44,041 nt of DNA from NCBI GenBank assembly GCA_017433405.1, contig JAFRHH010000057.1, forward strand, positions 1 through 44,041, given 5' to 3'. The notes under the pieces were generated by a model. It ran no database searches. It saw nothing but the letters and a program-made list of their open reading frames with translations, and was not told the DNA's origin. Positions within the stretch are counted from its first letter, which is position 1. Each line of letters begins with the position of its first letter. The translations under genes and the position numbers were made by a program. Source of the stretch: Clostridia bacterium (GTDB taxonomy: Bacteria > Bacillota > Clostridia > Christensenellales > Aristaeellaceae). Below, one piece after another: positions 1,101 through 37,955 of the stretch.

Positions 1101-1217
1101 GTGAACTGACGTTCAGAAAGGAGACAGATTTTGTCCGCGAACCGCGTTAGCGTGTGCGGTTACAAAATCGTCATCCGGATGAAATGGCAGTCGTGAACTG
1201 ACGTTCAGAAAGGAGAA
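1101..1217 (+). promoter_or_regulatory. Composite leader: hairpin-SD, GATTTTG stem-loop, hairpin-SD
   Basis: Two copies of GTGAACTGACGTTCAGAAAG followed by GAGA lie at 1101 and 1193. Each is a small hairpin (TGAAC/GTTCA, loop TGAC) directly before a Shine-Dalgarno sequence. Between them is a larger stem-loop with GATTTTG at 1127-1133 pairing with CAAAATC at 1163-1169 and an inner AACCGC/GCGGTT pair. The second SD serves the HPr-like gene at 1225. The same arrangement precedes purR and the RNase PH gene. Function is unknown; a structured mRNA leader is my inference. Confidence 0.75.
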
Positions 1218-1224
1218 AAGAAGC

Positions 1225-1464
1225 GTGAAAACCGTACTGATTCGGCTGAGCCTGGTGGAAAATGTAAACCGCTTTGTTAATATCGTGAGCCGTTATCCCT
1301 TTGAGATGGACTTGCGGGCCGGGCGGCACGTGGTGGACGCGAAGTCCATTCTGGGAATTTTTTCCCTGGATCTGTCCCGGCCGATTACCCTGGAGATCTA
1401 CAGCGAGGACTGCGGGGAGCTGCTGAAGGAGATTGAGCCCTTTATGGAAAAGCAGGGCGCCTGA
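1225..1464 (+). CDS. HPr-family protein lacking the phosphorylatable histidine
   Basis: This 79-residue protein has the length and pattern of the PTS phosphocarrier HPr. The region around the regulatory serine is recognisable (DAKSILGIFSL, Ser41, equivalent to HPr Ser46). The usual active-site segment GLHARPA is replaced: Asn13 stands where His15 should be. It therefore cannot carry phosphate from Enzyme I by the classical route. It resembles Crh-like or other regulatory HPr paralogues, which act through the serine. The start is GTG at 1225, about 9 nt after AAAGGAG. It is a single gene, followed by a terminator. A role in catabolite regulation is inference. Confidence 0.75.
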   Translation: MKTVLIRLSLVENVNRFVNIVSRYPFEMDLRAGRHVVDAKSILGIFSLDLSRPITLEIYSEDCGELLKEIEPFMEKQGA

Positions 1465-1521
1465 GAGCCCTGCTTTTCTGAAAGCGGCCGGGTTTCCCGG
1501 CTGCGTCTGGGGGAGGGCAGG

Positions 1522-1550
1522 GGCTGCGACGGAGCGCGCAGCCTTTTTTT
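1522..1550 (+). terminator. Rho-independent terminator after the HPr-like gene
   Basis: GGCTGCG (1522-1528) pairs with CGCAGCC (1537-1543), followed by seven T. It separates the HPr-like gene from the purR promoter. Confidence 0.85.
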
Positions 1551-1561
1551 AACCTTTTTTC

Positions 1562-1622
1562 AAAAATCCGAACGTTCGTGTTTCAAAAAGGCGCAAAACC
1601 GTCCCAGAACCGAATGTTTTTC
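1562..1622 (+). promoter_or_regulatory. PurBox-like operator upstream of purR
   Basis: CCGAACGTTCG at 1568-1578 sits in an A/T-rich context and contains CGAACGTTCG, an inverted pair of the CGAA core. A second CCGAATGTTTTT lies at 1610-1621. The Bacillus PurR operator uses CCGAAC-type PurBoxes, and Bacillus purR is autoregulated. The site lies just upstream of the promoter, so autoregulation here is a well-supported inference. Confidence 0.6.
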
Positions 1623-1637
1623 CCGATTTACCTTCCT

Positions 1638-1666
1638 TTTATTCGGAAATCATGATACAATATAAT
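1638..1666 (+). promoter_or_regulatory. purR promoter
   Basis: The -10 box is TATAAT at 1661-1666. The -35 is weak (TTTATT at 1638-1643, 17-bp spacer). Transcription would begin about 10 bp before the first leader hairpin, placing the hairpin near the mRNA 5' end. Confidence 0.55.
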
Positions 1667-1684
1667 CTTGCGAAGACTGGAAAC

Positions 1685-1798
1685 GTGAGCTGTCGTTCAC
1701 AGAGGAGACAGATTTTGTCCGCGGACGCTCAAGCGAAGCGGCTGCAAAATCGTCATCCAGGCAGAATGGCAGACGTGAACTGTCGTTCGCAGAGGAGG
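1685..1798 (+). promoter_or_regulatory. Composite leader: hairpin-SD, GATTTTG stem-loop, hairpin-SD
   Basis: Hairpins lie at 1685-1700 (GTGAGC-TGTC-GTTCAC, G-U wobble) and 1775-1790 (GTGAAC-TGTC-GTTCGC, U-G wobble), each followed by AGAGGAG(G). Between them, GATTTTG at 1711-1717 pairs with CAAAATC at 1745-1751. The base changes relative to the copy at 1101 keep the stems paired. The second SD serves purR. Confidence 0.75.
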
Positions 1799-1808
1799 AA
1801 AAACTGGC

Positions 1809-2678
1809 ATGGAAAAAGTCCGGCGGAATGAGCGGATGAGCGTCCTGATGAAGCTGATGGCGGATTCGCCGAATACCGTCCACAGCCTGGGGGAATTCGG
1901 GGCGCTGTTCGGCTCCGCGAAGTCCACCATGAGCGAGGATGTGGAGCTGCTCAGGAAAACGGTGGAGGCCTTCGAGCTCGGCCAGGTGGACACGGTGACC
2001 GGTGCCGCCGGCGGCGTGATCTATCGCCCGAAGATCAGCCGGGAAAAGGCTCTGAAAACGATACAGGAGCTCTGCGGGATGCTTTCCGGCACGGAGCGGC
2101 TGCTGCCCGGGGGCTATCTGTACTATGCCGATATTCTGTCGACCCCCGGTATCGTGAACCGGATGGGCGAGATCCTGGCCACCGCCTATTTCAGGGTGGA
2201 GCCGGATTTCGTGTTGACGATGGAAACGAAGGGAATCCCGGTGGCCTTCGCCACGGCCAACGCCCTGGGGGTTCCGCTGGTGATCGCCCGCCACTCCTCG
2301 AAGGTCTACGAGGGCTCCGCGGTGAACATCAACTATGTGTCCGGTTCCGGAAAGATGGAAACCATGAGCCTGAGCCGTCGGGCGGTCTGGGGAAAGCGCC
2401 GGGCGCTGATCGTGGATGATTTTCTCCGGGGCGGGGGAACCGCCCGGGGGATGGTGGAGCTGATGAAGGAGTTCAACGTGATGATCATGGGGATGTCCTT
2501 TGTCATGAGTACGGCTATTCCCCGGAAGAAGCGGGTGACCGGCGCCCGGAGCCTGATGACCCTGACCGTGAGCATGACCGAAGGGGAGCCCCCGACGGCC
2601 CTGGTGGAGCCTGCGGACTGGCTGCTTTCCGGGGATATCCTGAAGGCCCCGATGCCAATCGGGGGCTGGCTGACCTGA
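1809..2678 (+). CDS. purR: Pur operon repressor PurR
   Basis: This 289-residue protein matches Gram-positive PurR along its length. It has an N-terminal winged-helix DNA-binding domain (about residues 1-75) and a type I phosphoribosyltransferase-fold domain. The PRPP-binding loop is seen as ALIVDDFLRGGGTA near residue 200. In the family, PurR represses purine synthesis and transport genes and is released by PRPP, without catalytic PRTase activity. The ATG at 1809 follows AGAGGAGG at a spacing of about 10 nt. It is transcribed from its own PurBox-associated promoter through the composite leader. No other purine genes are in the window. Confidence 0.93.
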   Translation: MEKVRRNERMSVLMKLMADSPNTVHSLGEFGALFGSAKSTMSEDVELLRKTVEAFELGQVDTVTGAAGGVIYRPKISREKALKTIQELCGMLSGTERLLPGGYLYYADILSTPGIVNRMGEILATAYFRVEPDFVLTMETKGIPVAFATANALGVPLVIARHSSKVYEGSAVNINYVSGSGKMETMSLSRRAVWGKRRALIVDDFLRGGGTARGMVELMKEFNVMIMGMSFVMSTAIPRKKRVTGARSLMTLTVSMTEGEPPTALVEPADWLLSGDILKAPMPIGGWLT

Positions 2679-2760
2679 GACAGATTTGCCAAAGGGGAGA
2701 GAGATGTGATATCATAAGCTGTTATCGATTGCCCGAAAGGACGGGAAGGAGGAACAGCGC

Positions 2761-3993
2761 GTGTATCAGATGACCCCGCCGCAGCCGGTTCAGATGCCGC
2801 CCCCGCCGGAAAACAAACGGCTGAGCGTTGTCCAGATCATGCTGATCGTGCTGGTGATCGGCTTCGTGGTCTGGTACCTGGTTACGACGCTGACCCCGAA
2901 GCCGGAGCCCTACGGGACGATTACCGCCGGGGTGATCGGCTCCCGGTATTCCGGGGACTGCCTGATCGTCCGGGATGAGACGCCCCACGACGCGGAAGGC
3001 GTAACCAGCGTGGACTATATCGCCCGGGAAGGGACGATGGTTTACCGGGGCAATACCGTCTGCAACGTCTATTCCTCCGGCTTTTCGACCCGGGAGATGA
3101 ATACCCTGCAGGACTACCGGAATCAGATCAAGGAGTACCAGATCAAGCTGCTCTCCGGGGAAATCACGACGGATACCAAGCTGGAAAAGCTGGCGTCGGA
3201 CGTCATGACCCAGGCCCGGGAGGTGCGCCAGCTGATCCGCGGCGCCCGGGGAAACATGGAAAACCAGGAGAGCATGCTGGCGGCGGCGATTTCGAACCGC
3301 CAGGCCTACCTGAAGGAGAAGTACAGCGAGGATCAGCGGATGACCCGGCTGTATGACGATGAGCTGAGCCAGCTGCAGCGGATTTCCTCCTGGACGAAGC
3401 AGTACGCCGCCATGACGGAGGGACTGGTCAGCTTCTATTCCGATGGCTATGAATACGGGCTGACCACGGCCAACTATCAAACCTTCTCCCCGGCTCAGGT
3501 GCGGGCGATGATCAACGGCCAAAAGCCGGACGCCGGGGCGCTCCAGAAGGGGAAGACCACGATCTACCGGACGGTTAAGGACGGCCGGTGGTACGTGCTG
3601 ATGCTGATCCGAAACAGCAACTGGAACCCGGTGGAGGGCGCTGAATACGAGCTTCGGCTGGAGAACTTCAAGGATACGACGGTGCGGGCGACGGTAACCA
3701 GCTTTACCCGGGCCGGCGGCGAGCTGGTGGTTCGCCTCAGCGTCCAGGCGCCGGTGGAGCCGGTCCTGTATATCCGGACCTGTACCGGGGTGCTGGGGGA
3801 CAGCGTCAGCAGCCTGATGGTTCCGGCCCGGGCGCTGTATTATCAGGATAATATGCCCGGCATCGTCCTTTCGGACAACGGGTATGATTGGTTTATCCCG
3901 GTAAACGTGCTGGACCGGCAGGGGGATTCGGTATATATCTCCGCGATTCAGCAGGGCGTTCTGTATGAAGGCCAGACGGTGCGCCTGTTCTGA
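2761..3993 (+). CDS. HlyD-like single-pass membrane protein of the division cluster
   Basis: This 410-residue protein has a Pro-rich cytoplasmic N-terminus, one transmembrane helix (about residues 22-44), then an extracytoplasmic region with a beta-barrel/lipoyl-like part, a helical stretch (about 110-220) and further beta structure, as in HlyD/RND periplasmic adaptor proteins. The GTG start follows GGAAGGAGG. Similar proteins sit next to sepF in many Clostridia, and here sepF follows 140 bp downstream. No partner exporter is nearby, so a function in the envelope or division apparatus is only inferred from position. The length is normal for the group. Confidence 0.7.
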   Translation: MYQMTPPQPVQMPPPPENKRLSVVQIMLIVLVIGFVVWYLVTTLTPKPEPYGTITAGVIGSRYSGDCLIVRDETPHDAEGVTSVDYIAREGTMVYRGNTVCNVYSSGFSTREMNTLQDYRNQIKEYQIKLLSGEITTDTKLEKLASDVMTQAREVRQLIRGARGNMENQESMLAAAISNRQAYLKEKYSEDQRMTRLYDDELSQLQRISSWTKQYAAMTEGLVSFYSDGYEYGLTTANYQTFSPAQVRAMINGQKPDAGALQKGKTTIYRTVKDGRWYVLMLIRNSNWNPVEGAEYELRLENFKDTTVRATVTSFTRAGGELVVRLSVQAPVEPVLYIRTCTGVLGDSVSSLMVPARALYYQDNMPGIVLSDNGYDWFIPVNVLDRQGDSVYISAIQQGVLYEGQTVRLF

Positions 3994-4133
3994 GGACAGG
4001 CGCTGGAGCCAGGTGTGGGAATGAGCGGTGACTACCGGCTGGCGGCCAGACGGGGAGCCACCATGATGCGCGTCGGAAGCGCAATTTTCGGCCCGCGGAA
4101 CTGAGCCGCGGAAATGAGGAGGAACCGGAAACC

Positions 4134-5090
4134 ATGGCGTTTATGGATATTAAAAACCGGCTGCTGAATTTCTGGAACCGGACGGCGGCGGACAGCGCCC
4201 GCCGTCCTGACGGAGGAACCAGCTTTTACCGGCCGGTGGGAAAGAAAAAGAAGGAAGCGGAAGCCCCCGCCCCCGTCCAGGGGCAGGATCCGGCCTATAT
4301 TCATACCGGCTTTACGGGAATGAACCCGCCCTCGGATCCCTACGGCTATCCCGGCGGGGGAGCCTACGGCGCTCCGCCGGCCTATGGCCAGGGGGGCTAC
4401 GGAGATCCGACCTGCGGCCAGGGGACTTACGGCCAGCCGACCTATGGCCAGCCCGCCTACGGCCAGCCCACCTATAACGGTCAGGGAGCCTACGGCCAGC
4501 CCGCCGGGGGAAAGGCGGCCTGGGAACCCACCGCCCCGCGGCCGGAGCAGGGCTGGTTCGGCGGAAAGCAGGAGCCCCGGAATAATATTTCCTATATGCC
4601 GGGCTATTCGCCGGATAACGGGTCCAGCTTTACCCATGTGGAGCATATTATGGTCATGACCAGCCTGAAAACCTGCTACGAAGCCATCGAATGCATGAAA
4701 AACGGGGAAACCCTGATCGTGACCATGGACGCCATCGCCAACGAGAACGAAAGTCTCCGGTGCCAGGATATGCTGGCGGGAGCCGCCTTTACCCTGGGCT
4801 GCTCGGTTCGCCTGCTTCAGGGGGGCCGGGTGGTGGTGATCGCCCCGGAAAACGTGAAGGTGCTGCCGGAGGAGCGGGAGCGGGTCGAAATGCCGATGCG
4901 CTCCTTCGTTCCCCAGATTCCCCAGCCGGATCAGGCCCAGGAGGCGGCCCCGCGGCGGGAGCGGCGGGTGAGCGCCAATCCGGACTGGAATGCCGCCCGG
5001 CGGGGCGAGCGGCCGGACTTTAATCCCTATACCGGAACCATGCCCGCCGCGGCGGGGGCCTATGCGGCCTTCGGCGGTTACGGAAGCTGA
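4134..5090 (+). CDS. sepF: Cell division protein SepF with a long Gly/Tyr/Gln/Pro linker
   Basis: The protein has 318 residues, about twice the usual SepF length. An amphipathic N-terminal helix (MAFMDIKNRLLNFWNR) fits membrane binding. The SepF core is at about residues 166-247 (contains FTHVEHIMVMTSLKTCYEAI and GGRVVVIAPENV). SepF binds FtsZ and bundles filaments at the septum. The extra length is a low-complexity linker at about 40-150, including a YGQP-type repeat near 99-123, and a charged C-terminal tail. The ATG follows GAGGAGG. It lies between the HlyD-like gene and divIVA. The linker could favour self-association, but that is speculation. Confidence 0.88.
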   Translation: MAFMDIKNRLLNFWNRTAADSARRPDGGTSFYRPVGKKKKEAEAPAPVQGQDPAYIHTGFTGMNPPSDPYGYPGGGAYGAPPAYGQGGYGDPTCGQGTYGQPTYGQPAYGQPTYNGQGAYGQPAGGKAAWEPTAPRPEQGWFGGKQEPRNNISYMPGYSPDNGSSFTHVEHIMVMTSLKTCYEAIECMKNGETLIVTMDAIANENESLRCQDMLAGAAFTLGCSVRLLQGGRVVVIAPENVKVLPEERERVEMPMRSFVPQIPQPDQAQEAAPRRERRVSANPDWNAARRGERPDFNPYTGTMPAAAGAYAAFGGYGS

Positions 5091-5135
5091 TCAATCCGGT
5101 TCCGGAGCCGCCGTGGGCGGACCGACGGAACAGAA

Positions 5136-5176
5136 GACAGAATGGCAGACGTGAACGGCTGTTCACAGAGGAGGAG
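5136..5176 (+). promoter_or_regulatory. Hairpin-SD leader of divIVA
   Basis: GACAGAATGGCAGAC is followed by GTGAAC-GGCT-GTTCAC (5151-5166, perfect 6-bp stem) and AGAGGAGGAGG. This is the same module as at 1775, 13209 and 32452, but without the large GATTTTG stem-loop. Confidence 0.75.
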
Positions 5177-5185
5177 GAGACAGAC

Positions 5186-5650
5186 ATGGCGAAAATTACG
5201 GTGGACGTGATTACCAACAAGGAGTTCTCCATCGAGAACCGGGGCTACAACCGCCGGGAGGTGGATACCTTCCTCGATGAAATCAGCGAGGAGCTGGAGC
5301 GGATGGAGGCAGAAATCCAGGATCTGAGACAGAAGACCACGGCCATCCGGCCCCCGGAACCCGCCTCGGGCCCCTCCGCCCAGGACGAGAGCAGCTTCCG
5401 GGAAATTCTGGAAATGGCCCAGAAGGTCCGGGACGAAACGATCCGTAAGGCAAAGGAGGACGCGGAGGCGATTCGGGCCAAGGCGGAGACGGAGGCCAGC
5501 GAGCGGCTGGGCAGCCTGAGCGAGGACCGGACCAAGGCGGAAAAGGAAATCGCGGATCTGAAGGAAGTGGCCGCGGCCTACCGCCGTCAGTTTGAGGCCC
5601 TGCTCCAGGCGCAGCAGGAGGCCCTGGAAAAGGCGTCGGATCTTTTCTGA
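5186..5650 (+). CDS. divIVA: DivIVA-domain cell division/polarity protein
   Basis: This 154-residue protein carries the conserved DivIVA N-terminal lipid-binding domain (residues 1-45, contains VDVITNKEF, GYNRREVDTFLDEI) followed by coiled coil. DivIVA recognises curved membrane at poles and septa and recruits other factors. There is an interruption rich in Thr/Pro/Ser at about 50-70 between two coiled-coil parts. The ATG at 5186 follows a GGAGGAGGAG tract. It is downstream of sepF with a 95-bp gap that contains the hairpin-SD leader. Confidence 0.92.
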   Translation: MAKITVDVITNKEFSIENRGYNRREVDTFLDEISEELERMEAEIQDLRQKTTAIRPPEPASGPSAQDESSFREILEMAQKVRDETIRKAKEDAEAIRAKAETEASERLGSLSEDRTKAEKEIADLKEVAAAYRRQFEALLQAQQEALEKASDLF

Positions 5651-5683
5651 CGGGCGTGAAAAGAGCACAGGGAGGGATAAGCC

Positions 5684-6598
5684 GTGTTTGGACACCGATT
5701 TGACGGAAAGCGTATCTCCTCGATCGATCCGATCGTTCAGATTACGCCGCACCTGATGCCGATGCGCTGCGACGCCATGGTTTTTCTGGAGCATAAGCTG
5801 GACTACGAAAAGCTGACCCGCTATATTACGCGGAAGGCCGCGGAGGGACAGCGGATTACCTATATGCAGATTGTCATGGCCAGCTATGTCCGGGCGGTCA
5901 GCCAGCATCCGGAGGTCAACCGGTTTATTTTTAACAAGCAGTATTTCAGCCGGAAAAACTGCTCCGCCTCCTATACGATCCTGAAGGAATACCAGAATAC
6001 GGACAGCAATGAAACCACGATCCGTATCGAGTTCGATCTGACGGATACGATCTTCGACGTGCGGGACCGGATGATCGCCGCCCAGGAGGCCGCCCGCGCC
6101 GAGGAGGACAGTACGGCCGTGGAAAAGATCGCCCGGGTCGTGCTGGGCGTGCCGGGGCTGACCAGCCTGATCGTCTGGCTTTACCGCTTCCTGGATCGGT
6201 ACGGAATCGCGCCGACGGCCGTGGCGAAGGAGCTCCCCTTCTACTGCGGCGCCTTTATGACGAACAACGGCTCCATCGGCCTGCACCATGTCTGGCATCA
6301 TATCTATAACTTCGGAAACGTCAGCCTGTTTATGGCCATGGGCAGCATCCTGAAGGAAGCCACGGTGGAGGCGGACGGCCGGACGCGGATGAAGCGCTGG
6401 CTGCCGATCGGCATTACGGCGGATGAGCGGGTCTGCTCCGGCGCGCATTATTCGGCGTTCTTCGCGGACGTGAAAAAGGGCTTCGACAACCCGGAAATCC
6501 TGGAAACGCCGCCGGAAACGATCCGTTTCGATCCCGGTGTGGAATACCACGTACCGAAGGTCAAAAAGCCGGAGGCGGCGGAATCAGCCGTAAAATAA
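5684..6598 (+). CDS. E2 acyltransferase-like protein without lipoyl domain and without the catalytic His
   Basis: This 304-residue protein resembles the catalytic domain of 2-oxo acid dehydrogenase E2 and the chloramphenicol acetyltransferase fold (segments HPEVNRFIF, FYCGAFMTNNGSIG, and a C-terminal DERV motif). True E2 enzymes carry a DHRxxDG motif; here the aligned segment reads ADERVCSG, with Glu248 for the catalytic His and Ser252 for the Asp. There is no lipoyl or E1/E3-binding domain, and no E1 or E3 gene nearby. Classical acyl transfer is therefore unlikely, and the function is unknown. The GTG start follows AGGGAGG. It is the last gene of the rightward block and is followed by a terminator. 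Confidence 0.65.
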   Translation: MFGHRFDGKRISSIDPIVQITPHLMPMRCDAMVFLEHKLDYEKLTRYITRKAAEGQRITYMQIVMASYVRAVSQHPEVNRFIFNKQYFSRKNCSASYTILKEYQNTDSNETTIRIEFDLTDTIFDVRDRMIAAQEAARAEEDSTAVEKIARVVLGVPGLTSLIVWLYRFLDRYGIAPTAVAKELPFYCGAFMTNNGSIGLHHVWHHIYNFGNVSLFMAMGSILKEATVEADGRTRMKRWLPIGITADERVCSGAHYSAFFADVKKGFDNPEILETPPETIRFDPGVEYHVPKVKKPEAAESAVK

Positions 6599-6621
6599 AA
6601 AAGGCCGCGGCGCCGAAAAGG

Positions 6622-6645
6622 GCTGGACGATCGTCCGGCTTTTTT
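6622..6645 (+). terminator. Rho-independent terminator
   Basis: GCTGGAC/GTCCGGC (6622-6639, loop GATC, one G-U) is followed by six T. It lies between convergent genes and ends transcription from the E2-like gene. Confidence 0.75.
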
Positions 6646-6648
6646 ACG

Positions 6649-7530
6649 TCAAATAAAACTTTCTTCTTCGTTAAACGCCGGAATAAAATCCTCCCGGGCC
6701 GCCGCCTCCTCCTGAAGAAAGCCGGGAAGATCCAGGGCTATCATATGCTCCAGCACGCGCTGATACTCCTGGCGGGTAACCTTCCGGTCCAGCCCCGGAA
6801 CGGAAACCCCGTTCATGGGCACGTACTGGTGCATCAGGCTGACGGGGGTTCCCTCCGGCAGGGTGTCCCGAATCCAGGTCAGAAGCTTCATGCTTTCTCC
6901 CGTCAGCCCCGGCAGGATCAGATGGCGGACCAGCGTTCCCCGCGTCATGATCCCCTCCGGCCCGTAAAGGGGGCGGCCGGTCTGCCGGCACATCTCCCGG
7001 ATGGCGGCGGAAGCCTGCTGAAAATAGTCCGGCGCTCCGGCACAGCGCTTTCCCATGCGGGGGCTGTAATGCTTGAGATCCGGAAGATAGACGTCGATCA
7101 CCCCATCCAGGAGCCGGAGGGCCTCCGGCGCTTCGTAGCCGGAGCTGTTCCAGACCAGGGGCAGCCTCGGCCGATAAATTTCCAGGGCCTCCAGGATCCG
7201 CGGAATAAAGGGCGTTCCGGTGATCAGAGAGATGGACTGCATCCCCATCGCCTCCAGGCGCCGGAAGGCGTCCGCCAGCTCCCGGGGCGAGTAAATTCGC
7301 CCGGCGTTCCGGTGGGAGATCTCCGCGTTCTGACAGTAGACGCAGCGGAGGGTGCAGCCGGAAAAGAAAACCGCGCCGGTGCCCCGTGAGCCGGAGATCG
7401 GAGGCTCCTCCCAAAGATGGGGCGCGATCCGGCCGATGACCATGTCCCGGCCCAGGCCGCAGAAGCCCGGCCGCGTCTCCCGCTCCGCACCGCAGTGCCG
7501 GGGACAGAGCATACAGCCCATCTGTTTCAT
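6649..7530 (-). CDS. PflX-like radical SAM protein
   Basis: This protein of about 293 residues contains the radical SAM cluster motif CxxxCxxC (CTLRCVYC) and an N-terminal Cys motif (CMLCPRHC, then CG), matching the PflX/COG1313 group related to pyruvate formate-lyase activating enzymes. It would bind a 4Fe-4S cluster and S-adenosylmethionine. Its substrate is not known and no glycyl-radical enzyme is adjacent. AAAGGAG lies only 2 nt before the ATG at 7530 and 11 nt before an in-frame ATG at 7521, so either could be used. A REP-like palindrome lies just upstream. Confidence 0.8.
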   Translation of the reverse strand: MKQMGCMLCPRHCGAERETRPGFCGLGRDMVIGRIAPHLWEEPPISGSRGTGAVFFSGCTLRCVYCQNAEISHRNAGRIYSPRELADAFRRLEAMGMQSISLITGTPFIPRILEALEIYRPRLPLVWNSSGYEAPEALRLLDGVIDVYLPDLKHYSPRMGKRCAGAPDYFQQASAAIREMCRQTGRPLYGPEGIMTRGTLVRHLILPGLTGESMKLLTWIRDTLPEGTPVSLMHQYVPMNGVSVPGLDRKVTRQEYQRVLEHMIALDLPGFLQEEAAAREDFIPAFNEEESFI

Positions 7531-13119: not shown

Positions 13120-13232
13120 TTCCTGCCGGGAACAGGAGACAGATTTTGTCCGCGAATCGCGCTCGCGTGAGCGGTTCCAAAATCGTCATCCGTCGCAGAA
13201 AAGCAGACGTGAAGTACCATTCACAGAGGAGG
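13120..13232 (+). promoter_or_regulatory. Composite leader of the RNase PH-RdgB gene
   Basis: The order is a short hairpin TTCC-TGCCG-GGAA (13120-13132) with AGGAG; the GATTTTG (13142-13148) to CAAAATC (13178-13184) stem-loop with GTCATCC after it; then GTGAA/TTCAC (13209-13224, loop GTACCA) and AGAGGAGG. It is the third copy of the composite leader. The first hairpin has a different sequence from the other copies but the same position relative to its SD. Confidence 0.7.
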
Positions 13233-19352: not shown

Positions 19353-19471
19353 GCCCTTATCTGTCAACGCCTTCCTGATCGGAGGTGTGCGCGTTGCGGG
19401 AATTGGCACCATGCGGTTCCGCCGGTTGCCGTGACGTCATCAGGCCCGTCCCTCGGTCACTCGTGATAAGG
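19353..19471 (-). promoter_or_regulatory. SAM-I (S-box) riboswitch
   Basis: The minus strand shows the conserved S-box blocks in order: CCTTATC (P1 5' side), GAGGGACGGGCC, TGATGACGTCACGGCAACC, GGTGCCAATTCC and GATAAGGGCA (P1 3' side). Binding of SAM stabilises P1 and favours the downstream terminator at 19298-19331. It lies directly in front of metK, the classical context. Confidence 0.95.
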
Positions 19472-19483
19472 TTTGCAGAAATT

Positions 19484-30072: not shown

Positions 30073-30697
30073 GCTGTTCAAACCAACGTGCGGAAAACTC
30101 CGCAACGGCCTCCGCCAGTTTTTTGATGTCCCAGGACGCGGCGTTCAGGATCAGATCGAAGGAGGATCCGTCCCCGGAGTCCTTCCCCGTCAGGATCTCC
30201 CGGGTCTGCCTGCGGCTGCGGTCGATCCGCCGGATGTTCCGCAGGATCTCCTTCTCCGGCAGCCGCTCCTCCGGGGGCTTTTTGTTCTCATACCGGAGAC
30301 ACCGGTCCAGCCGGGCCTGCAGATCCGCGCATACGCTGATCCGGAAGGGATTCGATGCGTGCAACACCACGTCCGCGTCCCGCCCGACGATGACGCAGTT
30401 GTTGCCAGATTCAGCGATCTCCATCAGGATTTCCCGCTGCCGCGCCAGCAGCTGCGCCCCCGCGCTGCCCGTGCCGTGGATGGCCTGATGAAAGCTGTGC
30501 CGGTAGGTCAGCTGGTAATGAACCCATCCGTGGGTATTGAGGGCTTCCCGGACATAGTCCGGATGCAGCCCCTGCTCCTCGGCGAGGGCCTGGATGATTT
30601 CCCGGTCATAATAATCCCAGCCCAGCAGATCCGACAGCCGCTTGCCCAGCTCCCGGCCGCCGCTTCCGAACTGCCTGCTGACGGTAATAATCCGCAT
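30065..30697 (-). CDS. Cytidylate kinase-like family protein
   Basis: This 210-residue protein of the cytidylate kinase-like group (PF13189) has a P-loop-type start (ITVSRQFGSGGRELGKRLSD), WDYYDREII, and CVIVGRDADVVL. Family members are P-loop nucleotide-kinase relatives of unclear substrate, distinct from true Cmk. It forms an operon with the MATE transporter, which is a common pairing with small transport genes and does not define function. The ATG at 30697 follows GAAGGAGG and the hairpin-SD leader. Confidence 0.85.
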   Translation of the reverse strand: MRIITVSRQFGSGGRELGKRLSDLLGWDYYDREIIQALAEEQGLHPDYVREALNTHGWVHYQLTYRHSFHQAIHGTGSAGAQLLARQREILMEIAESGNNCVIVGRDADVVLHASNPFRISVCADLQARLDRCLRYENKKPPEERLPEKEILRNIRRIDRSRRQTREILTGKDSGDGSSFDLILNAASWDIKKLAEAVAEFSARWFEQHE

Positions 30698-30703: not shown

Positions 30704-30740
30704 TCCTCCTTCGTGAACAGCCGTTCACGTCTGCCTTCAT
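30704..30740 (-). promoter_or_regulatory. Hairpin-SD leader, minus-strand copy
   Basis: On the minus strand the sequence reads GAAGGCAGAC, GTGAAC-GGCT-GTTCAC (30728-30713, perfect stem), GAAGGAGG. It is the same module as at 5151, in the opposite orientation, and the only minus-strand copy in the window. The promoter -10 is only about 10 bp upstream, so the hairpin would be at the extreme 5' end of the mRNA. Confidence 0.75.
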
Positions 30741-31994: not shown

Positions 31995-32012
31995 CCTTTT
32001 TCCGGAAAAAGG
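31995..32012. other. Perfect palindrome downstream of the rubredoxin fusion gene
   Basis: CCTTTTT-CCGG-AAAAAGG. The 230-bp gap before HU also holds a CCGGG/CCCGG hairpin (about 31941-31956). One of these may end the upstream transcript; neither has a clear T-run. Confidence 0.4.
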
Positions 32013-32065
32013 GATGAATTTGACACAAAGTGGCTTAAAATGCCGGAAAACAAGGCGCGGAGGGC

Positions 32066-32094
32066 TTGAAGCAAGGGCTTTCTTGTGGTAGGAT
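32066..32094 (+). promoter_or_regulatory. HU promoter
   Basis: TTGAAG (32066-32071), a 17-bp spacer, TAGGAT (32089-32094). A perfect inverted repeat CTGTAC-GTG-GTACAG at 32116-32130 lies in the leader and could be an operator or hairpin. Confidence 0.65.
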
Positions 32095-32151
32095 GATGCC
32101 ATAGGAAACGAAAAACTGTACGTGGTACAGGAAAGAAAGGAAAATGGAAAC

Positions 32152-32433
32152 ATGAATAAGGGAGAACTGATCGAAGTCGTATCCTCCAAGGCTGAAATTA
32201 CCAAGGCGGAAGCCGGCCGCGTTGTCAGCGCTGTGCTGGATGGAATCGTGGACGGCCTGAAGGCGGATGGAAAGGTCGTCCTGCCCGGGTTTGGCTCCTT
32301 CGAGGTTCGCAGCCGGACAGCGAGAGTCGGCCGGAATCCCCGGACCGGTGAAAATATCAAGATCAAGGCTACAAAGGTGCCCGCTTTCAAGGCCGGCAAG
32401 GGCATGAAGGAAGCCGTCGCGAAGAAAAAGTAA
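32152..32433 (+). CDS. hup: HU-family DNA-binding protein
   Basis: This 93-residue protein is the usual HU length. The beta-arm region shows the family pattern (VVLPGFGSFEVRSR, RVGRNPRTGENIKI, then AFKAGKGMK). HU dimers bend and compact DNA. The ATG at 32152 follows AAAGAAAGG at about 11 nt. Downstream, separated by 46 bp with a hairpin-SD leader, is a Lys/Ala-rich protein likely in the same operon. Confidence 0.95.
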   Translation: MNKGELIEVVSSKAEITKAEAGRVVSAVLDGIVDGLKADGKVVLPGFGSFEVRSRTARVGRNPRTGENIKIKATKVPAFKAGKGMKEAVAKKK

Positions 32434-32435
32434 GA

Positions 32436-32476
32436 TGACAGAATGGCGGACGTGAACCGCCGTTTACAGAGGAGAT
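32436..32476 (+). promoter_or_regulatory. Hairpin-SD leader before the DUF6465-like gene
   Basis: GACAGAATGGCGGAC, then GTGAAC-CGCC-GTTTAC (32452-32467; one G-U pair), then AGAGGAG. It lies between hup and the next gene, so the module also works inside an operon. Confidence 0.75.
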
Positions 32477-32479
32477 ACA

Positions 32480-32938
32480 ATGGCAACGCTGAAAGAGAAG
32501 GCAAAGACTGCCGGAAAGAAGATTTCCGATCTCGCCGTAGCGAATGAAATCGAGGCGAAAAAGGGCGCGGCCAAGGCGAAGCGCACGGTAAAGAAGAAGC
32601 TCGAGGAGGCCGCCGCTCCCGTCGCAGAAAAGCTCGACGAGGCGAAGCTGGCGGATCAGATGGCCAGGGGCCGGAAAAAGGCTCAGGGTGATCGGAAGAA
32701 GGCGGAAACCAGGGCGAAGGCCGAATCGGTAAAGACCGCAGTGAAGACCCCGGCGAGAAAGGTCGCCGCCGCGAAGCTGAAAATCAATATCCAGTCCCCC
32801 ATGGGCGGCGTGATTACCCCGGAGGAAGTCGCGGCGAAGGTCCCGAAGGGCGCGAAGGAAGTTTATATCCGGGTGGATGAGAACAGGATCTACTGGGTGG
32901 GGCCGAAGGACAGCGGCTCCGTTGAGATCTGGGAGTAA
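32480..32938 (+). CDS. Lys/Ala-rich protein with DUF6465-like C-terminal domain
   Basis: The protein has 152 residues. Residues 1 to about 97 are Lys/Ala/Glu-rich, helical and basic, like the tails of histone H1-type bacterial proteins. Residues about 100-152 form a compact domain (KINIQSPMGGVITPEEVA, then VYIRVDENRIYWV and a final SVEIW) that I associate with DUF6465. Placement directly after HU and the basic tail suggest a nucleoid-associated protein, but this is inference. The ATG at 32480 follows AGAGGAG at 5 nt. A strong hairpin (about 32956-32983) follows the stop. Confidence 0.65.
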   Translation: MATLKEKAKTAGKKISDLAVANEIEAKKGAAKAKRTVKKKLEEAAAPVAEKLDEAKLADQMARGRKKAQGDRKKAETRAKAESVKTAVKTPARKVAAAKLKINIQSPMGGVITPEEVAAKVPKGAKEVYIRVDENRIYWVGPKDSGSVEIWE

Positions 32939-32955
32939 CGGAAGACAACAACAGG

Positions 32956-32983
32956 GAGGGACGCCGATGGCCGGCGTCCCTCG
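32956..32983 (+). terminator. GC-rich hairpin after the DUF6465-like gene
   Basis: AGGGACGCCG-ATGG-CCGGCGTCCCT. It has no T-run after it, so a terminator function is only possible. Confidence 0.5.
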
Positions 32984-33120
32984 TTCTGCGCCTCCCCCTG
33001 TCTGGAAAACGCAACCGGACATAACCGAAATATGAGAATTCTGTTATCTCCGGTTGGTGGAATCCGGGGCAACCATGCTTTACAATGATCACATCATTCA
33101 GAAGTTCGGGAGGCTCTCCG

Positions 33121-33852
33121 ATGGTGATCGCGGAAGTACGGGACCTTGTGAAAAAGTATCCTTCCTTCGAGCTGAAAAAGAATTCCTTCAGCCTCGAAAG
33201 CGGGCGGATTACGGGCTTTATCGGCCGGAACGGCGCGGGAAAGACGACGACGATCAAGGCCATGCTGAACATGATTCATCCCGACGGCGGGGAGGTTCGC
33301 TATTTCGGCCTGCCCTTCCTGGGCCATGAGGCGGAAATCAAGAAGCGGATCGGCTATTCGACGGGAACCGTCAGCTGGTATCCGAGAAAGAAGATCCGGG
33401 ATCTGGTTGAAATCGCCAGGAGGTTTTACGATACCTGGGACGAGGAGGCCTACCGGTCTTATCTCCGGCTCTTTGAGATCGATGAGACCAAAACGCCCCT
33501 GGAGCTGTCCGAGGGAATGAAGGTCAAGGTCAACCTGATCCTGGCCCTGGCCCACAGGGCGGAGGTGCTGATCCTCGACGAGCCCACCAGCGGCCTGGAT
33601 CCCTTTTCCCGCAGCGAGCTGCTGGGGCTCTTTACGGAGCTTCGGGACCGGGGCGTGACGGTTTTTTTCTCGACCCATATCATTACGGATATCGAGAAGT
33701 GCGCGGATGATATCCTCTATATCTCGAGGGGGCGGATCGCCGCGGCCCTGCCGAAGGCGGAATTCGTCCGGCAGTATTCGAGGGACGGCGAGCGCCTGGA
33801 GGATACGATGCTCCGGCTGGAGACGGAGGAAGGAGGCGCGGCTCATGACTGA
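33121..33852 (+). CDS. ABC transporter ATP-binding protein
   Basis: This 243-residue ATPase has Walker A GRNGAGKTT near residue 40, a variant signature LSEGM, and Walker B with LILDEPTSGLDP. It belongs to the group that works with a small ABC-2 permease and an accompanying regulator (as in YtrB/EcsA-like systems). The ATG at 33121 follows GGGAGG. It overlaps the permease gene by 8 bp. Substrate unknown. Confidence 0.9.
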   Translation: MVIAEVRDLVKKYPSFELKKNSFSLESGRITGFIGRNGAGKTTTIKAMLNMIHPDGGEVRYFGLPFLGHEAEIKKRIGYSTGTVSWYPRKKIRDLVEIARRFYDTWDEEAYRSYLRLFEIDETKTPLELSEGMKVKVNLILALAHRAEVLILDEPTSGLDPFSRSELLGLFTELRDRGVTVFFSTHIITDIEKCADDILYISRGRIAAALPKAEFVRQYSRDGERLEDTMLRLETEEGGAAHD

Positions 33853-34498
33853 TCTGCTGCGGAAGGAAATGCGGCTGAGCGCGTCGGTGCTCTCCTATCT
33901 GTTTATCGCTTTCGGGCTGATGTTCCTTTTGCCGGGCTATCCCGTTCTCTGCGGGGCCTTCTTCGTGAGCCTCGGGCTCTTCCAGAGTTTCCAGCTCGCC
34001 CGGGAGGCGAACGATATCGTCTTCTCCGTCCTGCTGCCCGTTGCCAAGCGGGATATCGTCCGGGGAAAATACGCCTTCGTCTGCCTGATCGAGGGCTGCG
34101 CGCTTTTGCTGATGGCCCTGGCGGTTCTCCTTCGGATGACGGTCTTTTCTCAGGCGGAGGTGTATCGGATGAACCAGATGATGAACGCGAACGGCTTCGC
34201 CCTGGGGATGGCCTTTGTGATCTTCGGCCTGTTTAACTGGATCTTCGTCGGCGGATTTTTCAAAACAGCCGTCAAATTCGCCCGCCCCTTCGTTGGCTTT
34301 GTTATCGCCTGCTTCCTGACGATCTTCGCGGCCGAAGCCCTCCATCATATTCCGGGGCTGGAGCGGCTGAACGCCTTCGGCACCGATGCCCTGGGCCTGC
34401 AGCTGATCCTGCTGGGGGCGGGGATCCTGCTTTTCCTGCTGATGACCCTGCTGTCCGGCCGAAGGGCCTGCGAAAGATTTGAGAAAATCGATTTGTGA
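33845..34498 (+). CDS. ABC-2-type permease subunit
   Basis: This 217-residue protein has six predicted membrane segments, following the ATPase with an 8-bp overlap that indicates coupling. It resembles the ABC-2 permeases of Clostridia that accompany GntR- or XRE-type regulators. Direction and substrate cannot be told. The ATG at 33845 follows AAGGAGG. Confidence 0.85.
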   Translation: MTDLLRKEMRLSASVLSYLFIAFGLMFLLPGYPVLCGAFFVSLGLFQSFQLAREANDIVFSVLLPVAKRDIVRGKYAFVCLIEGCALLLMALAVLLRMTVFSQAEVYRMNQMMNANGFALGMAFVIFGLFNWIFVGGFFKTAVKFARPFVGFVIACFLTIFAAEALHHIPGLERLNAFGTDALGLQLILLGAGILLFLLMTLLSGRRACERFEKIDL

Positions 34499-34511
34499 GG
34501 GGAACGAAACG

Positions 34512-34952
34512 ATGCTGAAGGACAATCTGGTGATGCTACGGAATCTTCACGGCTTTTCCCAGGAGGCGGTGGCCGAGAAAATTGGGATTTCCCGCCAGGC
34601 CTACGCCAAATGGGAAACCGGCGCCACGATTCCGGATATCGAAAAATGCGCCCTGCTGGCGGAGGTCTATGGGACCACCGTGGACAGCCTGATCCGGACG
34701 GAGCCGGCGGAGGGAATGGGTATGATTCCGCCCCCGCCGAGGGGCAAGAATATCTGGGGAACTGTCGCCATCAACGACAGAGGCCAGATCGTGATTCCGA
34801 AGGGGGCCAGGGAACGCTTCGGGCTGACGGGAGGCCAGCGGCTGGTGGTTCTGAGCGACGAGCAGGGAATCGCCCTGATCCCCGACGAGGCCTTTATGAA
34901 GAGCATGAACCGGATGATGGATGCCGTCGCCCGGGAGGCGGAGGAGCCCTGA
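34512..34952 (+). CDS. XRE-AbrB fusion transcriptional regulator
   Basis: The protein has 146 residues with two DNA-binding modules. Residues 1-65 are an XRE helix-turn-helix (FSQEAVAEKIGISRQAYAKWE). Residues about 85-125 are a SpoVT/AbrB swapped-hairpin domain (VAINDRGQIVIPKGARERFGL). Such fusions often sit in ABC-transporter operons and probably repress them. The ATG at 34512 follows GAGGGG. It is the third gene of the operon, 13 bp after the permease stop. Confidence 0.88.
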   Translation: MLKDNLVMLRNLHGFSQEAVAEKIGISRQAYAKWETGATIPDIEKCALLAEVYGTTVDSLIRTEPAEGMGMIPPPPRGKNIWGTVAINDRGQIVIPKGARERFGLTGGQRLVVLSDEQGIALIPDEAFMKSMNRMMDAVAREAEEP

Positions 34953-34972
34953 TCGATATTTAACAAAGAACG

Positions 34973-35001
34973 TTGACAGACCCGTAAATATTTGATAAAA
35001 T
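34973..35001 (+). promoter_or_regulatory. Flavodoxin gene promoter
   Basis: TTGACA (34973-34978), a 17-bp spacer, TAAAAT (34996-35001). Near consensus. Confidence 0.85.
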
Positions 35002-35042
35002 ATAATTGTATCCAATAGATGCAAAAAGGGAGGATGATGATC

Positions 35043-35453
35043 ATGAAGGTGGCAGTCAGATATTATACAAAGACCGGCAATACCAAACGTCTTGCGGACG
35101 CGGTGGCCCGGGCGGTGGGGGTGGAGGCGCTGCCCATCAGTACGCCGGTGACCGAGCCCGTCGATCTGCTGTTTCTCGGAAACTCTTATTATGCCTTCAG
35201 TATCGATCCCGAGGTTCGGAGCTTTATCCGCTCCCTCGACAGGTCGAAGGTGGGCAAAATCGTGAATTTCGGCTCCGCGGCCATGCTGAATTCGACCTAT
35301 AAGAAGGTCAGGGCCGAGGCGGAGAAGGTCGGGATCCCGGTGGATGAGCGGGAGTTCCACTGCCGGGGCGAGTTCAAGGGCATCCATAAGGGAAAGCCGG
35401 ACGCGGAGGACTGCAGGTCGGCGGCTGAGTTCGCCAAAAAGATCGTGGGCTGA
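35043..35453 (+). CDS. Flavodoxin-family protein
   Basis: This 136-residue protein has the FMN phosphate-binding loop TKTGNTKRLA near the N-terminus and the flavodoxin alpha/beta order (DLLFLGNSYYAFSID, VNFGSAAM). It is a cytoplasmic electron carrier, possibly with low-potential partners. The ATG at 35043 is chosen because GGGAGG is 10 nt upstream; two earlier ATGs overlap or crowd the SD. Confidence 0.88.
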   Translation: MKVAVRYYTKTGNTKRLADAVARAVGVEALPISTPVTEPVDLLFLGNSYYAFSIDPEVRSFIRSLDRSKVGKIVNFGSAAMLNSTYKKVRAEAEKVGIPVDEREFHCRGEFKGIHKGKPDAEDCRSAAEFAKKIVG

Positions 35454-35492
35454 TGATCGAAAAACACGGGTGCTGACGGAAAAAACACAGGG

Positions 35493-35533
35493 ATATGTTC
35501 GTATGAAAGCATTTTTGTACGGACATATTTTTT
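35493..35533 (+). terminator. Rho-independent terminator after flavodoxin
   Basis: ATATGTTCGTA...TACGGACATAT with T-run at 35528-35533. Confidence 0.8.
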
Positions 35534-35537
35534 GTGG

Positions 35538-35566
35538 TTGACAAGGGGAAAAGAGTTGACTATCCT
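35538..35566 (+). promoter_or_regulatory. Promoter of the glycosidase operon
   Basis: TTGACA (35538-35543), a 17-bp spacer, TATCCT (35561-35566). The -10 is weak; TATAAA at 35570 is an alternative with a poor -35. Confidence 0.45.
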
Positions 35567-35610
35567 GAATATAAAATCCGACCCGGCAGAAAAACAGATT
35601 GAGGTGGCTT

Positions 35611-37896
35611 ATGAACATTGCTGAAATCAGAAAAGTGATCTCCAACATGACCCTGGAAGAAAAGGCCGGGCTCTGCTCCGGCGCGGACTTCTGGCATACC
35701 AAGGCCGTGGAGCGGCTGGGCGTGCCCGCCACGATGGTTTCCGACGGCCCCCACGGCCTGCGGAAGCAGGATGAGAAGGCGGACCATCTGGGTATCAACG
35801 ACAGCATCAGGGCGGTCTGCTTCCCGGCGGCCAGCGCCACGGCGGCCTCATTTGATCCGGAGATGCTGGAAAGGATGGGCGAAGCCCTGGGGGAGAGCTG
35901 CCAGCACGAAGGCGTCAGCGTCCTGCTGGGGCCGGCAGTCAATATCAAGCGCAGCCCCCTGTGCGGCCGGAACTTTGAATATTTTTCCGAGGATCCCTAT
36001 CTGACGGGGGTTCTGGCGGCCGCCCTGATCAGGGGCGTCCAGAGCAAAAACGTGGGAACCAGCATCAAGCACTTTGCCCTGAACAGCCAGGAGCACCGGC
36101 GGATGAGCTCCTCCGCGGACTGCGATGAGCGGGCGATCCGGGAAATCTATTTCCCCGCCTTTGAAATGGCGGTCAGGGAAGCCCAGCCCTGGACGGTGAT
36201 GTGCTCCTATAACCGGATTAACGGGGTCTACGCCTCGGAAAACCGCTGGCTGCTGACGGACGTGCTCCGGAAGGAGTGGGGCTTCGAGGGCTATGTCATG
36301 TCCGACTGGGGCGCCGTGGCGGACCGGGTGGAGGGCATCAGGGCCGGCCTGGATCTGGAAATGCCCTCCTCCGGCGGCATTAACGACCGGAAGATCGTGG
36401 CGGCGGTGAAGGCCGGAAAGCTGGATGAAAAGCTGGTGGACCAGTGCTGCGAGCGGATTCTGAAGATCGTTTACCGCTTCGCGGAAAACGCGAAGCCGGA
36501 GACCCCCTGGGATCAGGAAGCCCAGCATCTGATGGCGGCGGATATGGCGGCGGAGTGCATGGTGCTGCTGAAGAACGAAGGGAGCATCCTGCCCCTGAAC
36601 AGGGCGGACGAGATCGCCTTCATCGGCGAGTTCGCCGAGAAGCCTCGCTTCCAGGGGGGCGGCAGCAGTCATATTAACTGCTTCAAAACCACCGGCGCCC
36701 TGGAGGCGGCTGCGGGGCTGAAGGTCACCTATGCCCGGGGCTACGATGTGAAGGCGGATCTGGCCTCGCCGGAGATGATCGCCGAGGCGGTCGCGGCGGC
36801 GAAGAAGGCGAAGGTGGCGGTCGTGTTCGCGGGTCTGCCGGATTCCTATGAAAGCGAAGGCTACGACCGGACCCATATGCGAATCCCGGATTGCCAGAAC
36901 CGCCTGATCGAGGCGGTGGCGGAGGCGAATCCCCGTACCGTGGTGGTGCTCCATAATGGTTCTCCCGTGGAAATGCCCTGGATCGGTCGGGTGGCGGGCG
37001 TCCTGGAGGCCTATCTGGGCGGCCAGGCGGTGGGCCTGGCGACGGTGAAGGTGCTCTTCGGCGACGTGAACCCCAGCGGCCATCTGCCGGAAAGCTTCCC
37101 CATCAGGCTGGAGGACAATCCCAGCTATCTGTTCTACGGCGGGGAACCCCGGGGATCGGAATACCGGGAGGGCATCTTTGTGGGCTACCGGTATTATGAT
37201 AAAAAGAAGATGGACGTGCTGTTCCCCTTCGGCCACGGCCTGAGCTATACGACCTTTGAATATACCGGCATCCGGGTGAGCCGGGAGACCATGAAGGATA
37301 CCGATACGGTGGACGTGACGGTGACGGTGAAGAATACCGGAAAGCGCGCCGGTAAGACGGTGGTGCAGCTCTACGTGGGCGATGTGGAAGGCTATGTGAA
37401 TGCGATCCGGCCGGTTCGGGAGCTGAAGGCCTTCCGGAAGGTGGCCCTGGAGAGCGGCGAGACCAGGGAGGTGACCTTCACCCTGGATAAGCGGGCGTTT
37501 GCCACCTGGCGCGGCGAAATCCATGACTGGTGGGTGGAAAGCGGCGACTTCTCCCTGGAGGCCGGCGACAGCAGCGCCTGCCTGCCGCTGAAGGCCGTGG
37601 TCAGGGTGGAATCCACGGTGGAGCTGCCGCGGAAATATGATATGAACAGTATCTTTATGGACGTCATGCATGATCCGAAGGCCGCTGCTATCGTAAGTCC
37701 CTTTATGCAGCAGTCTGCGGCAGCCTTCGGAAACGATGAGGAGAAGAAAACCTCCGAGGCGGCCAGCGAGGCGATTACCGCGGAGATGAGCCTGGCCATG
37801 ATGCGCTACATGCCGCTGCGCTCGGCGCTGAGCTTCAGCCAGGGACAGATCTCAGAGGAGGACATGCTGGACATGATCCGCCGGATGAACGAATGA
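35611..37896 (+). CDS. Glycoside hydrolase family 3 beta-glucosidase
   Basis: The protein has 761 residues. The GH3 N-terminal barrel contains the catalytic nucleophile Asp232 in MSDWGAV, and KHFALNSQEHRR for substrate binding. A second domain with GGGSSHIN-type sequence follows, then a fibronectin III-like C-terminal domain (VTVTVKNTGKRAGKTVVQLYV). There is no signal peptide, so it acts on imported oligosaccharides. An Ala/Glu-rich tail of about 80 residues follows the Fn3-like domain. The ATG at 35611 follows GAGGTGG. It is the first gene of an operon with the GH2 enzyme. Confidence 0.92.
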   Translation: MNIAEIRKVISNMTLEEKAGLCSGADFWHTKAVERLGVPATMVSDGPHGLRKQDEKADHLGINDSIRAVCFPAASATAASFDPEMLERMGEALGESCQHEGVSVLLGPAVNIKRSPLCGRNFEYFSEDPYLTGVLAAALIRGVQSKNVGTSIKHFALNSQEHRRMSSSADCDERAIREIYFPAFEMAVREAQPWTVMCSYNRINGVYASENRWLLTDVLRKEWGFEGYVMSDWGAVADRVEGIRAGLDLEMPSSGGINDRKIVAAVKAGKLDEKLVDQCCERILKIVYRFAENAKPETPWDQEAQHLMAADMAAECMVLLKNEGSILPLNRADEIAFIGEFAEKPRFQGGGSSHINCFKTTGALEAAAGLKVTYARGYDVKADLASPEMIAEAVAAAKKAKVAVVFAGLPDSYESEGYDRTHMRIPDCQNRLIEAVAEANPRTVVVLHNGSPVEMPWIGRVAGVLEAYLGGQAVGLATVKVLFGDVNPSGHLPESFPIRLEDNPSYLFYGGEPRGSEYREGIFVGYRYYDKKKMDVLFPFGHGLSYTTFEYTGIRVSRETMKDTDTVDVTVTVKNTGKRAGKTVVQLYVGDVEGYVNAIRPVRELKAFRKVALESGETREVTFTLDKRAFATWRGEIHDWWVESGDFSLEAGDSSACLPLKAVVRVESTVELPRKYDMNSIFMDVMHDPKAAAIVSPFMQQSAAAFGNDEEKKTSEAASEAITAEMSLAMMRYMPLRSALSFSQGQISEEDMLDMIRRMNE

Positions 37897-37912
37897 TCGC
37901 TGAATGGGAAAA

Positions 37913-37955
37913 GAACGGGGCAGCGGGGAATTCCGCTGCCCCTGTTCAGAGGAGG
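37913..37955 (+). promoter_or_regulatory. Strong hairpin directly before the beta-mannosidase SD
   Basis: GAAC-GGGGCAGCGG (37913-37926) pairs with CCGCTGCCCC-T-GTTC (37933-37947), followed by AGAGGAGG (37948-37955). The outer GAAC/GTTC and AGAGGAGG match the hairpin-SD module, but the stem is far longer. Confidence 0.7.

Follow-up and report, generated by a model that had tools for sequence, protein, structure and literature searches.

A ~95-nt interspersed repeat at the Shine–Dalgarno sequences of a Clostridia bacterium, probably a non-autonomous mobile DNA element

Introduction

The pneumococcal BOX, RUP and SPRITE repeats and the Correia elements are small interspersed repeats, some of which are transcribed with neighbouring genes, and an element that resembles them in these respects is the subject here: a repeat of 94-97 nt (~95 nt) ending in a hairpin and a Shine–Dalgarno (SD) sequence, seen in a 44,041-nt contig (JAFRHH010000057.1 of assembly GCA_017433405.1; the whole of this stretch is referred to as the window) of a Clostridia bacterium of the Aristaeellaceae. 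To our knowledge, exchange of the SD sequence of a gene is not a property of BOX, RUP, SPRITE or Correia elements. The insertion sequences (ISs) of the IS200/IS605 group are described, in passages of PMC6006769 and PMC7290912, as having subterminal hairpins, no terminal inverted repeats and no target duplication, and as inserting 3' of a fixed tetranucleotide; REP-type relatives are described in passages of PMC6006769 and PMC3733652. No SD-targeted repeat is described in the available parts of PMC3049150, PMC2775950 and PMC7290912, and in the accessible parts of the open-access literature, as judged from titles and the beginnings of abstracts, no repeat was found to be described as inserting into SD sequences and replacing them.

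The element is like the palindrome-associated transposable elements (PATEs) and similar IS200/IS605 derivatives that retain only the ends, in being short and non-coding, in having a hairpin near each end without terminal inverted repeats or target duplication, and in its insertion 3' of a fixed tetranucleotide, as seen from its left junctions (GGAG in 36 of 56 full copies) and from empty sites. It is unlike them in that a parent IS has not been found and the copies are counted in hundreds, in that the target is the core of the SD sequence, which the right end supplies again, and in that the guide-like sequence flanks the hairpin on the opposite side. With the REPs and REPINs (BIMEs) it shares the high copy number of intergenic palindromic repeats, the occurrence in species-specific families and a tetranucleotide at the foot of a hairpin, whereas the units of 94-97 nt, with two unlike hairpins, show no inverted pairing, the hairpin foot is GGAG instead of the GT[AG]G of REPs, and the element often lies upstream of genes at the SD sequence, REPs being predominantly downstream of coding regions (according to passages of PMC3733652). 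Like the cis-regulatory leaders of Rfam it is a structured 5' untranslated region, but in a search of the window the element scores below the gathering threshold of every Rfam family, in agreement with the sequence-only reading of this DNA, in which no known element could be named. The sole match in the window above an Rfam gathering score is an S-adenosylmethionine (SAM) riboswitch at 19354-19472 on the minus strand (77 bits).

Results

The hairpins in the window had been interpreted as eight leaders of the form GTGAAC-N4-GTTCAC or paired variants of it. All eight are present where they had been placed, and their number is far beyond chance, as the pattern GTGAACNNNNGTTCRCNNAGGAG, allowing up to two mismatches, has 270 matches in the genome to which the window belongs (the host genome; 2,533,817 bases in 92 contigs, 89% complete), 118 on one strand and 152 on the other, when compared with 0 for the reversed control pattern. 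They are not free-standing, since each hairpin with its SD sequence is the 3' end of the longer interspersed repeat, which is recognised by reading upstream of copies in 20 further stretches and the window; in the window, three of the eight (1193, 1775 and 13209) close full-length elements and the other five belong to 5'-truncated copies. The order of the parts is GGAG, the junction, ACAGATTTTG, hairpin A, CAAAATC, GTCATCC, a further segment, hairpin B (GTGAAC N4 GTTCAC) and AGAGGAG, and the consensus over 52 full copies is GGAGACAGATTTTGTCCGCGAACGCGTnAGCGAAGCGGTTACAAAATCGTCATCCGGACAGAATGGCAGACGTGAACTGnCGTTCACAGAGGAG. The upstream GGCAGAC, for which conservation had been claimed, is indeed conserved, as part of a longer conserved block. 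The alignment and the table of ends show a subterminal hairpin at each end and neither terminal inverted repeats nor target duplication, which sets the element apart from miniature inverted-repeat transposable elements of the terminal-inverted-repeat type. The pairwise identity of the 52 copies has a mean of 0.815 and a maximum of 0.968; the copies differ among themselves, and much of the spread is therefore probably not very recent.

In an unselected sample of 442,440 bases (20 stretches of 18-20 kb and the window, chosen regardless of copies), 56 matches (E up to 0.01) are detected with a profile for which 36 long copies were used, and all stretches of the host genome, including those chosen for their copies, hold 95 distinct copies at E 0.001, of which 57 are intact at both ends, 31 are truncated at the 5' end and 7 at the 3' end. 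The excess of copies lacking the 5' part over those lacking the 3' part is what a reverse-transcribed, RNA-mediated element would leave behind, but the same asymmetry is generated if the 3' end is retained as the only SD sequence of a gene, and the 57 copies with both ends also speak against such an origin, which is considered very improbable.

The insertion history is visible when comparing the host genome with G005, the closest of 36 congeners as judged from two proteins (77% and 82% identity; the comparison covers the congeners other than G061-G068). G005 has no match to the hairpin-SD motif nor, with strict filters, to either of the two covariance models described below, and at one mismatch or less the motif has 197 matches in the host genome and 4 matches, in 3 genomes, among the 44 other genomes of the genus. 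The leader of rph in G005 reads ...tttcgacccggcaggacaggaatcctgctggaaaaGGAGAGGAACCATG (short form ...GGAGAGGAACCATG), and that of the host reads ...attcgacccggcggatggaaattcctgccgggaacaGGAG, followed by the element, which ends in GAGGAG, and by GAACCATG, with an alignable left flank. The metH leader in G005, which comes after the end of a conserved gene upstream, reads ...GAAATGAGGAGagcgccATG, and in the host ...CGGTAAgcagGGAG, the element and gcgcccATG. Both are thus empty sites in G005, with both flanks matching, and in the host genome the insertion is inside the SD sequence. By eye, both flanks can be aligned at rph and metH only, the era leader being alignable on the left and the tyrS leader on the right. 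At the era-like gene (L053), the reading frame of the upstream gene appears, by eye, to enter the element, and the insertion may have altered the end of that protein.

A wider comparison concerns 18 gene pairs between the host genome and G005, obtained by best tblastn match (22 joined protein pieces and five further G005 stretches), 12 having full-length copies and 6 having truncated copies. Inspection by eye finds a GGAG-type SD sequence shortly before the G005 start codon in 11 of the 12 pairs with full-length copies, the start of the twelfth being uncertain. In one of these 11 (pair 14), the host element is at TGAG, upstream of a native SD sequence that has apparently survived.

The junctions define what is target and what is element. 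The left tetranucleotide of 56 full copies is GGAG in 36, AGAG in 6, GAAG in 5 and others in 9, and the right tetranucleotide is GGAG in 43 of the 56, including 12 of the 20 with another left tetranucleotide. As the right GGAG is constant even where the left one differs, it is the element's own and not a target duplication. The left GGAG represents the target, so that a gene hit in its SD sequence receives a new one from the element. The new SD sequence in turn offers a GGAG target, and the head-to-tail tandems are explained by this: 9 of the 36 copies with GGAG at the left follow the end of another copy (motif test), and the tandems 1101/1193 and 1685/1775 of the window fit insertion into the SD sequence brought by an earlier copy. 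If SD regions exchanged hairpin-SD leaders through gene conversion, with no transposition mechanism, the SD motifs would serve as short homology, and tandems could be accounted for; the sharp GGAG junction and the intact ~95-nt units at unrelated genes argue against this, and we regard it as extremely improbable. One of two suggestions of the sequence-only reading, that of a mobile repeat carrying an SD sequence of its own, is strongly supported by the empty sites, the few matches in congeners, the copy number and the tandems.

Random scatter with respect to start codons, named beforehand as a refuting outcome, is not seen, as an open reading frame (ORF) of at least 80 aa starts no more than 30 nt from the 3' end in 40 of the 56 copies of the unselected sample, versus 8 of 56 in the reverse orientation, 499 of 2000 random points and 189 of 597 GAGGAG sites. 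With a stricter spacing of 4-12 nt, 26 of 51 host copies with an intact 3' end pass, versus 750 of 5991 GGAG sites (all those in the host stretches, including the ones at the elements themselves). Copies at AGAG sites seldom serve a gene (1 of 6). SD placement is therefore enriched in the host genome, yet far from universal.

The copies of the window illustrate this arrangement. The first tandem consists of a 5'-truncated copy at 1099..1123 (+), with the hairpin at 1101-1116 and its SD sequence, recognised by direct reading (the profile gives only 11 bits, E 0.13), and, joined to its end, a full-length element at 1120..1215 (+), of which the first four nucleotides, GGAG, are the target, i.e. 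the SD sequence of the previous copy, with hairpin B at 1193-1208 and a new SD sequence extending to 1215; the latter copy serves an HPr-like gene with a GTG start at 1225 (+). In the second tandem, a 5'-truncated copy at 1671..1707 (+; hairpin 1685-1700 and SD sequence) is the first member and abuts a full-length element at 1704..1797 (+; hairpin B 1775-1790 and SD sequence), which is followed by the ATG of purR at 1809. A 5'-truncated copy at 5137..5174 (+; hairpin 5151-5166 and SD sequence) precedes divIVA at 5186. The full-length element at 13135..13231 (+; hairpin B 13209-13224) lies within the SD sequence of rph-rdgB (ATG 13237), a single ORF in which RNase PH is joined to Ham1/RdgB according to Pfam; this is the rph site that is empty in G005. 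Two more 5'-truncated copies with SD sequences are at 30705..30738 (-; hairpin 30728-30713), preceding a cytidylate-kinase-like gene with ATG at 30697, and at 32437..32474 (+; hairpin 32452-32467), preceding a gene at 32480. The proposed identities of the served genes agree with Pfam for PurR, DivIVA, RNase PH-RdgB, the cytidylate-kinase-like protein and, weakly, the HPr-like protein (PTS-HPr, E 1e-5); the gene at 32480 has no Pfam match at E 0.001.

Related families are found in a few congeners with two covariance models, R1, built from 52 copies, and R2, built from 13 copies of G026, G067 and G061, at a threshold of E 0.01; no more than 92-94 candidates per genome were scored, which makes the host counts in these searches ceilings. 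R1 has 14 matches in G026, 9 in G067, 1 in G061, 2 in G009 and weak single matches in G018 and G013, and none in 38 of the 44 congeners. R2 has 21 matches in G026, 14 in G067, 1 in G061 and 1 in G009, and none in 40 of the 44; opposite-strand overlaps (2, 1 and 0 in G026, G067 and G061) reduce these to 19 places in G026 and 13 in G067. In most copies, the families of G026, G067 and G061 retain GGAGAC, hairpin A, GTCATCC and a final GAGGAG or AAGGAG. Their hairpin B is ACGAAAC-NNN-GTTTCGT; 3 of the 13 diverged copies have no good hairpin B stem, further ones have an imperfect stem, and this hairpin is missing from their joint consensus fold. Placement was examined for 22 congener copies (9 from G067, 12 from G026 and 1 from G061, leaving out the short G026 copy L140 as well as L183, L184 and L179). 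An ORF of at least 80 aa lies within 12 nt in 21 of the 22, and the spacing is 4-12 nt in 19 of the 22, compared with 12.5% of the host GGAG sites (binomial p 8e-15). This placement may result from targeting alone, or also from the retention of copies that have become the only SD sequence of a gene.

The strong copy in G009 (L179 / L146) is near-identical to, and has a flank in common with, the host locus L072 10426-10519 (-), and it looks like a contaminant or like DNA transferred along with the surrounding region. In G026, a degenerate short copy with an end of the host type, GTTCACAGAGGAG, is present in the purR leader (L101 / L140); purR is preceded by a tandem in the host. An order-wide model search gives matches in 2 of 297 genomes and 1 of 125 genera; scoring was limited to 14 candidates per genome, which makes the test a weak one. 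A 16-base piece of the element occurs in 12 stretches of viral contigs, none of which, by eye, has the rest of the element, and these matches were taken as chance. Other repeats were also noticed. A second repeat family of the host, GGGGACAGGCCCC / GGAACATGGGG and ACACGGGGACGGTCC..., is seen at L004, L050 and L051 and at L001 and L016, sometimes directly upstream of truncated copies, and it resembles the GGGG[AT][CG]A[CG] repeats of subclass 2.1 Y1 proteins. Contig C17 of G005 (L133-L137) has a repeated motif of its own, GGTCCGGAGGGGACGGTTC, a 14-mer being found 7 times in 84 kb when both strands are counted; Y1_Tnp was not found in G005.

In the predicted fold of the consensus single strand, pairing of GGAGAC with GTCATCC extends hairpin A, and hairpin B lies beside the terminal SD sequence. 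The fold z-scores are -4.0 for RNA (folded with an artificial tail) and -4.9 for DNA. Standard pairs are formed in 93.2% of the cells of the host copies (92% for hairpin B). The stems are not all intact, the innermost pair being G-A in the 13209 copy and the outermost G-G in the 1101 and 1193 copies. The covariation that had been taken as a sign of structural selection fails within the host genome, where 4 double-change cells compare with a mean of 2.3 for shuffled columns, and RNAalifold retains only hairpin A for these copies, omitting hairpin B, with a covariation term of 0.03. Across species, which was beyond the reach of a single sequence, hairpin A has 34 double-change cells compared with a shuffled mean of 10.2, none of 500 shuffles being as high, and a covariation of 0.186 compared with 0.105 when shuffled (slid versions give 0.011-0.079 or values below that observed). 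This set consists of 28 hand-picked copies, 14 from the host and 14 from congeners, and much of the change lies between the two families, so that few independent events are represented.

When considering the 36 GGAG-left copies in their context, the predicted unpaired fraction is 0.55 for the right GGAG, 0.22 for the left GGAG and 0.25 for random GGAG sites; a closed left and an open right GGAG are predicted together in just 17 of the 36. The cross-species covariation, the conserved stems, the sense orientation before start codons and a new SD sequence predicted to be more open than the average GGAG are also in agreement with native, vertically inherited cis-regulatory or translation-enhancing leaders, whose hairpin would raise translation or protect the mRNA. 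Such leaders are not expected to be missing from most congeners at E 0.01 (the 38 and 40 of 44 given above), to be replaced by plain SD sequences at the matching G005 genes, to serve unrelated genes or to occur as tandem and misplaced copies, and covariation inside the host genome is absent. Moreover, the new SD sequence is more open than closed in only 26 of 52 copies. This explanation is therefore judged improbable, and a translation-enhancing hairpin is not needed for explaining the placement.

Discussion

The repeat and its boundaries, the copy number, the two empty sites with both flanks, the constant GGAG of the right end, the homologous families and the cross-species covariation of hairpin A are direct observations, and they point to the element very probably being a non-autonomous mobile DNA element of ~90 nt with the target logic of IS200/IS605 elements, which exchanges the SD sequence on insertion. 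It would insert directly 3' of GGAG, less often of NGAG or GAAG, the site fixing its orientation, and a sense-strand GGAG is often the SD core of a gene. On insertion in an SD sequence, the old SD would be displaced ~90 nt upstream, and AGAGGAG after hairpin B would become the new SD at normal spacing. It is possible that the transposition occurs via single-stranded DNA by an HUH/Y1-type enzyme acting in trans, with the conserved GTCATCC as a guide that may pair with the flanking GGAGAC; the same pairing may mask the old SD in the mRNA, and hairpin B may expose the new one. A more far-reaching proposal is that of an element class adapted to the SD niche, with guide-paired recognition of GGAG, sense insertion in the ribosome-binding site, masking of the old SD and supply of its own, by which the leaders of a considerable fraction of the genes are rewritten yet remain translatable, perhaps under a common translational signal; this is put forward tentatively, as somewhat less probable than even.

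Several observations weigh against the proposed mobile element. Both flanks can be aligned at just two empty sites, and no transposition event was observed. Among the 3'-intact host copies, the spacing of 4-12 nt holds for just 16 of the 31 that are full-length and 10 of the 20 that are truncated, and of 33 full-length host copies, 10 are at an SD position, 15 are elsewhere between genes and 8 are in or opposite called genes; with the same gene caller, a crude one that takes the longest ORF greedily, GGAG sites outside elements are divided into 170 SD, 505 intergenic and 5323 genic. The copies were located with consensus profiles, which biases them toward intact right ends. The 31 5'-truncated copies among the 95 are not predicted by single-strand transposition alone. 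The guide-like GTCATCC is 3' of hairpin A, not 5' as in IS608, and it is unchanged when the left tetranucleotide changes (the first two pairs are broken in 10 and 7 of 52 copies); a guide for the right end is not evident. As the 5' guide position differs and a right-end guide is lacking, membership of IS200/IS605 is not claimed. A mobilising enzyme was also not identified, the sole Y1 gene in the 89%-complete assembly being RAYT-like. Neither a full IS with the same ends nor a TnpA of the IS200 subclass was found in the host genome, in which a genome-wide search for other full ISs was not made. A candidate autonomous copy at L072, where left and right halves 1.2 kb apart enclose an ORF, was rejected, as this ORF is hydrolase-like (named by eye) and not a transposase.

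A REP-like element mobilised by the product of this RAYT/TnpA-REP-like (Y1) gene, contig C5 (L033) 805-1548 (-), has in its favour that no other Y1_Tnp gene was found in the assembly, that a full-length copy lies ~150 nt upstream of this gene, and that the GGAG at the foot of hairpin A resembles the GT[AG]G foot of REPs as given in passages of PMC6006769. That copy, upstream only, is the single one in 6 kb, so that the gene is not flanked by repeats as RAYT genes of REP systems are, and at the density of the element it is not unusual for a gene to have a copy nearby. The protein, with 247 aa and the motif NHVH, fits subclass 2.1, which is reported in passages of PMC6006769 without REPs and with GGGG[AT][CG]A[CG] repeats, and repeats of that type are present in the host genome (L004, L050 and L051). 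Its Y motif reads YIVQNQ and not Y---NP, and its sequence matches no solved structure at E 0.01. Relatives at 57-58% are present in five genomes that are free of the element, and none is found in G067 (77% complete), which bears it; both observations also count against the mobile element proposed above. Since the distribution of the relatives does not track that of the element, the RAYT was rejected as its mobiliser, and a REP-like origin is considered unlikely.

Compact bacterial genomes offer few harmless places for insertion. An element that enters a ribosome-binding site and returns one has a safe site at many genes, the leaders of which are changed too. If the proposed exchange is correct, a selfish repeat can rewrite translation signals throughout a genome, and sister species in which the same gene occurs with and without the insert would provide a natural experiment.

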